Assembly (NCBI GenBank): GCA_012837335.1
Contig: DURM01000027.1
Location: 1 to 59,530, forward strand
DNA length: 59,530 nt
Origin: Bacillota bacterium
GTDB lineage: Bacteria; Bacillota; Limnochordia; Darwinibacteriales; DTU012
Direction of reading: 5' to 3'
The position numbers and the translations under genes are program-made. The notes under the pieces were generated by a model. The model did not search any database. It was not told the DNA's origin and worked only from the letters and a program-made list of their open reading frames with translations. Shown here in pieces: positions 4,697 to 37,793 of the stretch. Each line of letters begins with the position of its first letter. Positions within the stretch are counted from its first letter, which is position 1.

Positions 4697-5469
4697 CGCC
4701 AAATCCTCCTCAAGCTCGGCTGCTCATCTTTATGCAGGTAGGCCTGGAGCTGCTCCCGCAATCTGCTTTCTGTTAGGTACCGGCGCAGTCTTCCTCCCAC
4801 CGCTAGCGAAACAGCTCCTGTCTCCTCTGAAACCACTACCACTAAAGCATCTGACTGCTCCGATATCCCCACCGCGGCTCGGTGGCGCGTACCCAGCTGT
4901 GAATCAAGTCTGGTTTCAGTTAGCGGCAGAAAACAAGCAGCTGCCTGAATTCTTTTCCCGCGAAGCACAGCTGCGCCATCATGGAGGGGCGAATTTGGCT
5001 CAAAAATATTGGTCAGCAGCTGCTCTGTTAAAACCGCATCCAATTCAATGCCGGTGTCAATGTATTCCTGCAGACCTGTTTCCCGTTCGATTACAATCAG
5101 TGCTCCAAACCGGCGAGCACCAAGCTTAACTGCAGTCTGAACAATCGTCTCGATGAAGCGATCGATTTCTTCTGCTTCGGATAAACTGGTTTTGGTAAAT
5201 AAACGCCCCTGCCCTAACTGCTCCAGTGTCCGCCGCAGTTCAGGGTAAAAAACAATGGGCAGAGCAACAAAGACAGTAGTGGTTGCCTGTTCCAGCAGCC
5301 AGTTCACAGTTCTGAGCGAAAACGCCTGGGCTGCAACTCCCGCAGCCACAATTACCGCCAGCCCTTTAATCAAAGTCATTGCCCGGGTGCCGCGGATCGC
5401 ATGAATCAGTTTGTAAATCACAAATGCAACCAGCAGTATATCTATGGCATCTAAGATTGTGAACCTCAC
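4693..5469 (-). CDS. cdaA: diadenylate cyclase, membrane-bound (CdaA/DacA)
   Basis: CdaA makes cyclic di-AMP from two ATP; c-di-AMP controls potassium and osmolyte uptake and wall homeostasis in Bacillota. The 258-residue protein has three hydrophobic segments in the first ~75 residues, then the DAC (DisA_N) domain. Both catalytic motifs are present: PLHDGA (DGA at 164-166) and GTRHRAAVGISEQ (RHR at 195-197). The start is GTG with AAGGAG 8 nt upstream, 4 bp after the HAD gene stop. It is the only c-di-AMP synthase visible here, and a c-di-AMP riboswitch lies 32 kb away in the same window. Confidence 0.96.
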   Translation of the reverse strand: MRFTILDAIDILLVAFVIYKLIHAIRGTRAMTLIKGLAVIVAAGVAAQAFSLRTVNWLLEQATTTVFVALPIVFYPELRRTLEQLGQGRLFTKTSLSEAEEIDRFIETIVQTAVKLGARRFGALIVIERETGLQEYIDTGIELDAVLTEQLLTNIFEPNSPLHDGAAVLRGKRIQAAACFLPLTETRLDSQLGTRHRAAVGISEQSDALVVVVSEETGAVSLAVGGRLRRYLTESRLREQLQAYLHKDEQPSLRRIWR

Positions 5470-37070: not shown

Positions 37071-37099
37071 TTGACTTTGCTTCAAGGTAATTATATTAT
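37071..37099 (+). promoter_or_regulatory. sigma-A promoter of the c-di-AMP riboswitch transcript
   Basis: TTGACT (37071-37076), a 17-bp spacer and TATTAT (37094-37099) lie about 20 bp before the riboswitch. Confidence 0.8.
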
Positions 37100-37120
37100 T
37101 GTACATGAAGTAAATATAAA

Positions 37121-37238
37121 ACTCCTAATTGCTTAAGTCTAGCGGGGGAACCAACTTTTTGGGGTGAATCCTGCCAGCAGGAGGGGCAACTTGGGTGCCC
37201 TAACCCGTCAGCTAACCTCGTAGGAGTCCACCAAGCGT
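37121..37238 (+). ncRNA. cyclic di-AMP riboswitch (ydaO/yuaA class)
   Basis: The element carries the hallmark conserved blocks of the ydaO class in order: GCTTAAG, GCGGGGGAACCAAC, TTTTTGGGGTGAATC, a variable GC-rich hairpin (CCTGCCAGCAGG), GGGTGCCCTAACCCGTCAGC and TAACCTCGTAGG. ACTCC/GGAGT and GCTT/AAGC can close the outer stem. In characterised members c-di-AMP binding turns expression off through termination. Here a terminator follows directly and the only downstream gene is a 30-codon ORF. The identification is by memory of the consensus, not by a covariance search. Confidence 0.92.
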
Positions 37239-37275
37239 ATGTTGACTAACGTAATAGTCGGGCATGCGTTTTTTT
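37234..37275 (+). terminator. riboswitch expression-platform terminator
   Basis: CGTATGTTGACTA pairs with TAGTC-GGGCATGCG (one bulged G, some G-U pairs), followed by seven T residues at 37269-37275. Its 5' arm touches the 3' end of the riboswitch outer stem, so the two structures can compete. Confidence 0.82.
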
Positions 37276-37326
37276 GTTTCCAAAATTAGGGTCAAGTAGT
37301 TAGAAGTAGTTAGGAGAGTGATAGTA

Positions 37327-37419
37327 ATGTTGTTTCCAGTTAAATTGTCCAACAAAGTTAGATTTTTAGCCGCAGTCTTGTTTGGGTTGTTTATTTTAGT
37401 CATGCTTCGTTTCTCATAA
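37327..37419 (+). CDS. 30-residue single-pass membrane peptide under the c-di-AMP riboswitch
   Basis: The frame ATG 37327 to TAA 37417-37419 encodes 30 residues, too short for most gene finders. It begins MLFPVKLSNKVR and continues with a hydrophobic helix (FLAAVLFGLFILVMLRFS) to the end. AGGAG lies 10 nt upstream. It is the only ORF between the riboswitch terminator and a perfect inverted repeat. A cytoplasmic basic N-terminus and one helix fit a small regulatory subunit of a transporter. The start also resembles the N-terminus of KtrB/TrkH-type potassium channels, so a truncated remnant of a potassium transporter gene is an alternative. No homolog is assigned. Confidence 0.55.
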   Translation: MLFPVKLSNKVRFLAAVLFGLFILVMLRFS

Positions 37420-37434
37420 AGCTTCCTTAAGGTC

Positions 37435-37472
37435 CAACTATGCCAATAGCGCTGGCGCTATTGGCATAGTTG
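37435..37472. repeat. perfect long inverted repeat, probable convergent terminator
   Basis: CAACTATGCCAATAGCGC and its exact complement flank a two-base centre. Neither side has a good T-tract, so termination is likely but not certain. It separates the plus-strand small ORF from the convergent Nif3-like gene. Confidence 0.6.
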
Positions 37473-37484
37473 CGTTTATGGGAC

Positions 37485-37793
37485 TTATCGATCAAGTTTG
37501 ATCACAGTATAAGCCGGTTCTTCGTATGGATGGACCTTGATTAGTTCCGCGATCACTTCTTCGATGATGTCAGCGGTGCAGATCATCTCCACTTTATATT
37601 CCGGTACTTTCTCAACTTGGCCAACCTTCCCGATGTGGGGATCAGCTCCCTGCAGGGGCCGAAACTGCCCCTCGCCCAGCACCTGCCAGCAGCAGCAGTC
37701 GTAGTTTTCATATCTGCCCGCGCCTTTGGCAAATAGGGCTGCCTTAACCTCCTCTACATTCTCTACAGGAACATAAAAGGCTAATTGATACAT
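37485..37793 (-). CDS. stand-alone Nif3/YqfO middle-domain-like protein
   Basis: The 102-residue protein begins MYQLAFYVPVENVEEVKAALFAKGAGRYENYDCCCWQ and ends IKVHPYEEPAYTVIKL. These are the hallmarks of the CutA1/PII-like domain inserted in Nif3-family (YqfO) proteins and also found alone. The HPYEEPAY motif is diagnostic. The domain trimerises and may bind metal or nucleotides; its function is not settled. It is the last gene of the ABC-F / DUF1858 operon (5-bp gap). Confidence 0.85.
   Translation of the reverse strand: MYQLAFYVPVENVEEVKAALFAKGAGRYENYDCCCWQVLGEGQFRPLQGADPHIGKVGQVEKVPEYKVEMICTADIIEEVIAELIKVHPYEEPAYTVIKLDR

Follow-up and report, generated by a model that had tools for sequence, protein, structure and literature searches.

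Targets of c-di-AMP riboswitches include KimA, KtrAB, osmolyte transporters and wall hydrolases, and most known outputs of this class are large proteins with a role in ion or osmolyte transport or in remodelling of the cell wall. Small membrane proteins such as KdpF and CydX, which are about 30 amino acids in length and carry one membrane helix, act as accessory proteins. In Bacillus thuringiensis, a c-di-AMP riboswitch is located upstream of kdpFABC, and measurements there show the OFF switch for which the class is known, with c-di-AMP favouring termination and its level dropping under low K+ (PMC6488665). A c-di-AMP OFF switch has likewise been measured in Dehalobacter (PMC9337991).

Here we describe a locus in a 59,530-nucleotide stretch of bacterial DNA (‘the window’, by which we mean this entire stretch) where a member of the same riboswitch class precedes a single 30-codon open reading frame (ORF). 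On the basis of its sequence and that of its relatives, we judge that the best overall explanation is probably a dedicated, monocistronic gene for a c-di-AMP-controlled small membrane protein. The riboswitch class itself is already known, and what is new, as far as searchable papers show, is its 30-residue peptide target; within the same bounds, a stand-alone conserved membrane peptide of this size that serves as the sole target of a riboswitch of this class is undescribed. Our search of the open-licence literature, to which the founding gene tables (Nelson et al. 2013) do not belong, returned no paper on a micropeptide controlled by a c-di-AMP riboswitch. A conserved one-gene unit of this kind would bring micropeptides into c-di-AMP signalling, and the riboswitch clearly predicts the timing of peptide production.

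Architecture of the riboswitch locus

The sole Rfam match in the window is a full-length hit to RF00379, the c-di-AMP (ydaO/yuaA) riboswitch aptamer, at positions 37112–37242 (+), and its score of 94.3 bits (E = 5.5e-21) against a gathering score of 38 places the RNA in this class. Upstream of the aptamer is a sigma-70-type promoter, TTGACT-17-TATTAT (37071–37099, +), that agrees with the consensus at 10 of 12 positions, although chance alone would yield about 1.5 such sites within that kilobase; comparable −35/−10 pairs are present at the same place in G001, G002, G004 and G005. The expression platform is an intrinsic terminator, as expected of the RF00379 class, and consists of a hairpin that overlaps the tail of the aptamer (37233–37272, +; −17.2 kcal/mol, z = −2.5) and is followed by seven U residues. 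A hairpin and U run of the same type are found in all eight homologous units.

The ORF begins with an ATG at position 37327 and ends with a TAA at 37417–37419 (+), and its product, MLFPVKLSNKVRFLAAVLFGLFILVMLRFS, contains one predicted membrane helix. It is preceded by a Shine–Dalgarno (SD) sequence, AGGAG (37312–37316, +). Every copy of the micropeptide gene has an SD sequence ahead of its ATG, and this element and its surroundings, TTAGGAGNNTGAT, are retained across all copies in family f1. Downstream of the ORF is a perfect 17-bp inverted repeat (37435–37451/37456–37472, +; −28 kcal/mol, z = −5.7), beyond which a convergent ORF of 102 amino acids is located at 37485–37793 (−). The repeat probably serves as the end of transcription between the convergent genes, and relatives carry a different hairpin in its place. 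A first-pass annotation, made from the nucleotide sequence of the window, had described this same arrangement. The ydaO-class aptamer was confirmed by the covariance model; the promoter, terminator, ribosome binding site and single-helix ORF were found as described by consensus scan, folding, sequence and helix prediction, respectively; and the inverted repeat and convergent gene were also present.

Three congeners carry an extra hairpin between the riboswitch terminator and the SD sequence, at approximately 1448–1471 of L007 (G004) and at the matching place in L009 (G003) and L006 (G002), and this hairpin is absent from the window. We also considered a candidate antiterminator, in which the aptamer core GUCAGC (37207–37212) would pair with GUUGAC in the left arm of the terminator (37241–37246) in the window, G001 and G005. 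The hexamer is present in only 9 of the 64 riboswitches that carry the GUCAGC core, a share that does not exceed the chance expectation of 15%, and therefore we do not claim this pairing.

Conservation of the riboswitch–peptide pair

Genomes were searched with the 30 residues alone as the query, and thus blind to the riboswitch, among 61 genomes comprising the window’s own and 60 relatives. Matches were confined to the genus, where all five genomes carry the peptide, and to a single genome from a second genus in the same family, in which it occurs on two contigs with near-identical flanks that are probably strain variants. Matches outside the window range in E-value from 8e-11 to 0.08, and every one of them, strong or weak, lies directly downstream of an RF00379 match. 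We also read the sequences that follow c-di-AMP riboswitches, 80 of them in the order and a further 61 in the class. This revealed a divergent homolog, MNTYYKLSTKARIFIVIVFALLLVLIERIS, behind another RF00379 riboswitch in a genome of a second family (G011, f4; L061). A profile built without this copy ranks it first among the remaining downstream frames (E = 0.012; 1063 frames), and its profile score was equalled by 1 of 5000 shuffles. When the micropeptides are compared with one another, between 0 and 1 of 1000 shuffles score as high.

No similar peptide was found beside the 61 c-di-AMP riboswitches read elsewhere in the class, and weak profile matches from the rest of the order and from a 398-genome sample of the phylum have no adjacent c-di-AMP riboswitch. 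A search of genome contigs recovered the micropeptide only in records of G001 and G002, and viral contigs gave no match. Profile searches of Pfam, NCBIfam and PDB assign it to no family. The evidence base is made up of seven independent loci, all of them from draft genomes of one order.

The ORF is under purifying selection. Nei–Gojobori counts for the G000–G001 pair give 11 synonymous changes over 21 sites and 6 non-synonymous changes over 66 sites (dN/dS = 0.11; Fisher test, 7e-5), and the ratios are 0.13 for G003–G004 (Fisher test, 5e-5) and 0.14 for G000–G002. These values of 0.11–0.14 describe the closer pairs only, as dS is saturated, and hence uninformative, in distant ones.

The gene beyond the unit varies. 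It is a CutA1/P-II-like ORF in G000 and G001 (weak Pfam matches), a NUDIX-type ORF in G002 and a lipoprotein-like ORF in G003 and G004 (the latter two types named from sequence motifs only), and another, different ORF in G005. Because the flanking genes differ between lineages, the micropeptide unit is a gene in its own right that has been passed down within the lineage. The convergent 102-aa ORF of the window (37485–37793, −) is the one with weak matches to CutA1 and P-II, whose type of fold is shared by PstA/DarA, a receptor for c-di-AMP. Since such a neighbour occurs only in G000 and G001, its presence is probably a coincidence.

The first-pass annotation had proposed a dedicated c-di-AMP-controlled micropeptide and had pointed to relatives and to synonymous change as the places to look. 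The recurrence of the riboswitch–ORF pair in all congeneric genomes, in a second genus and in a second family, together with the strongly synonymous pattern of change, supports that proposal. From these comparisons, we consider it very likely that the ORF encodes a translated membrane micropeptide that is repressed by c-di-AMP.

Predicted mode of action and alternative readings

Because OFF-switch behaviour is known for this riboswitch class, the peptide is expected to be made when c-di-AMP falls. At high c-di-AMP, as when K+ is plentiful and there is no hyperosmotic stress, the aptamer would be bound and the terminator would form. A drop in c-di-AMP, caused by low K+ or osmotic stress, would permit readthrough and hence production of the peptide. 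A membrane helix is predicted for residues 9–29, and hydropathy places two or three basic residues ahead of a hydrophobic stretch at approximately residues 13–27, which suggests that the peptide would insert as one helix with its Lys/Arg-rich N-terminus in the cytoplasm.

We hypothesize that the peptide binds to a larger membrane protein involved in K+ or osmotic homeostasis or in c-di-AMP synthesis and tunes its activity. By analogy with other small membrane proteins, the likeliest role would be to regulate a membrane partner or to serve as its accessory subunit, and we lean towards this assignment with some reservation, whereas any one named partner would be an unlikely choice at best. No transporter strictly co-occurs with the peptide. 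TrkH is missing in G004 and CPA2 is missing in G003, G004 and G005, and thus neither is a required partner. CdaA, the c-di-AMP synthase, is the only tested candidate present in every peptide-bearing genome, but every genome of the order that lacks the peptide has it as well, and therefore its co-occurrence is not distinctive. The DAC domain of CdaA is encoded in the window at 4789–5130 (−), about 32 kb from the riboswitch. In G000, G002 and G004, cdaA and the micropeptide share a contig at a distance of roughly 27–32 kb, which shows a common chromosome position rather than a function. No partner gene is adjacent to the peptide gene except for a 112-aa ORF in G011.

The peptide might instead act on the membrane by itself in the manner of small hydrophobic type I toxin peptides, so that a drop in c-di-AMP would reduce membrane potential or growth. 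Its size, single hydrophobic helix and basic flanks are all compatible with such an activity. However, we regard this reading as improbable, given that the peptide has no match in Pfam or NCBIfam, that its mode of control is a riboswitch and that its copy is conserved in place rather than scattered. A simple consensus scan also failed to reveal a clear promoter running antisense over the ORF; the only promoter-like site on the minus strand, at 37141–37113, is at chance level and would be read away from the ORF.

It is less probable still that the transcript works as RNA, either as a c-di-AMP-controlled small RNA or as an antisense to the convergent gene, with the ORF being incidental. The unit is monocistronic and has a strong 3′ hairpin opposite the convergent gene, and antisense-acting ydaO riboswitches have been predicted in other systems (PMC9943018). 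The strongly synonymous character of change in the ORF, the SD sequence ahead of the ATG in all copies and the inconstancy of the convergent gene between lineages argue against this reading, and both roles are disfavoured.

The first-pass annotation had also raised a rival to its own proposal, namely a switch left behind after the loss of a K+ transporter gene. In this reading the riboswitch formerly controlled KtrB/TrkH or kdpFABC, of which only the first 30 codons are left. In G006, a genome of the same family, the single c-di-AMP riboswitch is indeed followed by KtrB, and in B. thuringiensis the riboswitch is followed first by kdpF (PMC6488665). Nevertheless, this reading is largely refuted, has the least probability of those considered here, and was rejected. 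The claimed resemblance of the ORF’s N-terminus to KtrB/TrkH was not supported, as Smith–Waterman scores of the peptides against the N-termini of KtrB, TrkH and CPA2 are matched by 108 to 948 of 1000 shuffles (185 to 948 for KtrB and TrkH alone). None of the relatives carries, at the corresponding position, a full-length transporter with matching first codons. The peptide has no match in Pfam; none of six members matches the KdpF profile at E-values up to 10 or is linked to kdpABC, and KdpA is absent from 37 of 37 genomes of the order (positive controls included). Moreover, trkH or ktrB is located elsewhere in six of the seven peptide genomes (G000, where the copy is interrupted by the contig end, G001, G002, G003, G005 and G011), and seven genomes maintain this ORF, complete with a stop codon and a terminator, under purifying selection.

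Small-protein targets in the order and among known systems

The 80 riboswitches of the order were sorted by their first recognisable product, which is a CPA2 antiporter in 20 cases, KtrB in 1, another product in 4 and a small protein in 55. The small proteins are an HPRQK family (17), Veg-like proteins with or without a preceding 109-aa ORF (17), zinc-ribbon proteins (13) and the micropeptide (8). Since 55 of 80 riboswitches precede small-protein genes, the window’s case belongs to a broader pattern. Beyond the reach of the first-pass annotation, the ORF proves to be one among several families of small proteins encoded behind these switches in the order.

The HPRQK proteins (47–59 amino acids; motif E-x-H-P-R-Q-K; no predicted membrane helix) are a second, undescribed stand-alone small-protein family, with no counterpart in Pfam or NCBIfam. 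Among 73 genomes of the class, 17 copies were found, all 17 behind a c-di-AMP riboswitch, in 17 genomes of family f3 (L055 1716–1880; also L029, L035, L036, L045, L053, L066, L070, L100 and others). This family and the micropeptide never share a genome.

Small zinc-ribbon proteins (about 48–67 amino acids; CxxC...CxxC) are in many genomes encoded immediately after c-di-AMP riboswitches, as the first gene, both in the order (L048, L051, L075, L076, L078, L087, L088, L089, L090) and in other families of the class (L150, L162, L165, L166, L167). A recurrent riboswitch operon encodes an undescribed 109–112-aa protein and a Veg-like protein, in the order zinc ribbon, approximately 109-aa ORF, Veg-like (L033, L040, L044, L077) or 109-aa ORF, Veg-like (L030, L060), and L061 has the micropeptide followed by a 112-aa ORF. 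Veg-like genes also lie directly behind c-di-AMP riboswitches, for a total of 21 cases in the order, and our literature search found no paper tying veg to a c-di-AMP riboswitch. Other genomes have relatives of the 112-aa ORF that follows the micropeptide in G011, and there they come after a zinc-ribbon gene, as if the leading position of the operon were open to various small proteins. A recurrent target in families f6 and f10 of the class is a secreted ABC solute-binding-like protein (AKTLVIGxDDDLxTLDPADFSHRQTExMLRQIYEGLS; L108–L113, L115, L116, L119).

Given that most c-di-AMP switches in the order precede small genes, these riboswitches offer a handle for small regulatory proteins that are missed by annotation. 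We tentatively put forward the broader idea, which we hold as possible rather than probable, that c-di-AMP in this order signals mainly through riboswitch-controlled small proteins (the 30-aa membrane peptide and the HPRQK, zinc-ribbon and Veg-type proteins) and not mainly by transporter switching. The 30-aa peptide might then be a dedicated effector with a membrane target, possibly providing feedback on CdaA or K+ transport.

The micropeptide resembles KdpF and CydX in its length of approximately 30 amino acids and its one helix, which is predicted in the micropeptide, but it differs from them in lacking both detectable similarity in Pfam or PDB and an adjacent partner other than the G011 ORF. 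The kdpFABC locus of B. thuringiensis shares with the window the riboswitch class and a transcriptional OFF platform, which is predicted in the window, and its first gene, kdpF, codes for a small membrane protein. However, kdpF heads the operon of a whole K+ pump, whereas the peptide gene in the window stands alone, is not KdpF-like and occurs in an order without KdpA. Finally, KimA, KtrAB, the osmolyte transporters and the wall hydrolases are controlled by the same sensor, and presumably show the same response to low c-di-AMP as the window’s peptide, but these targets are full-size transporters or enzymes, whereas the target in the window is a peptide of 30 amino acids.
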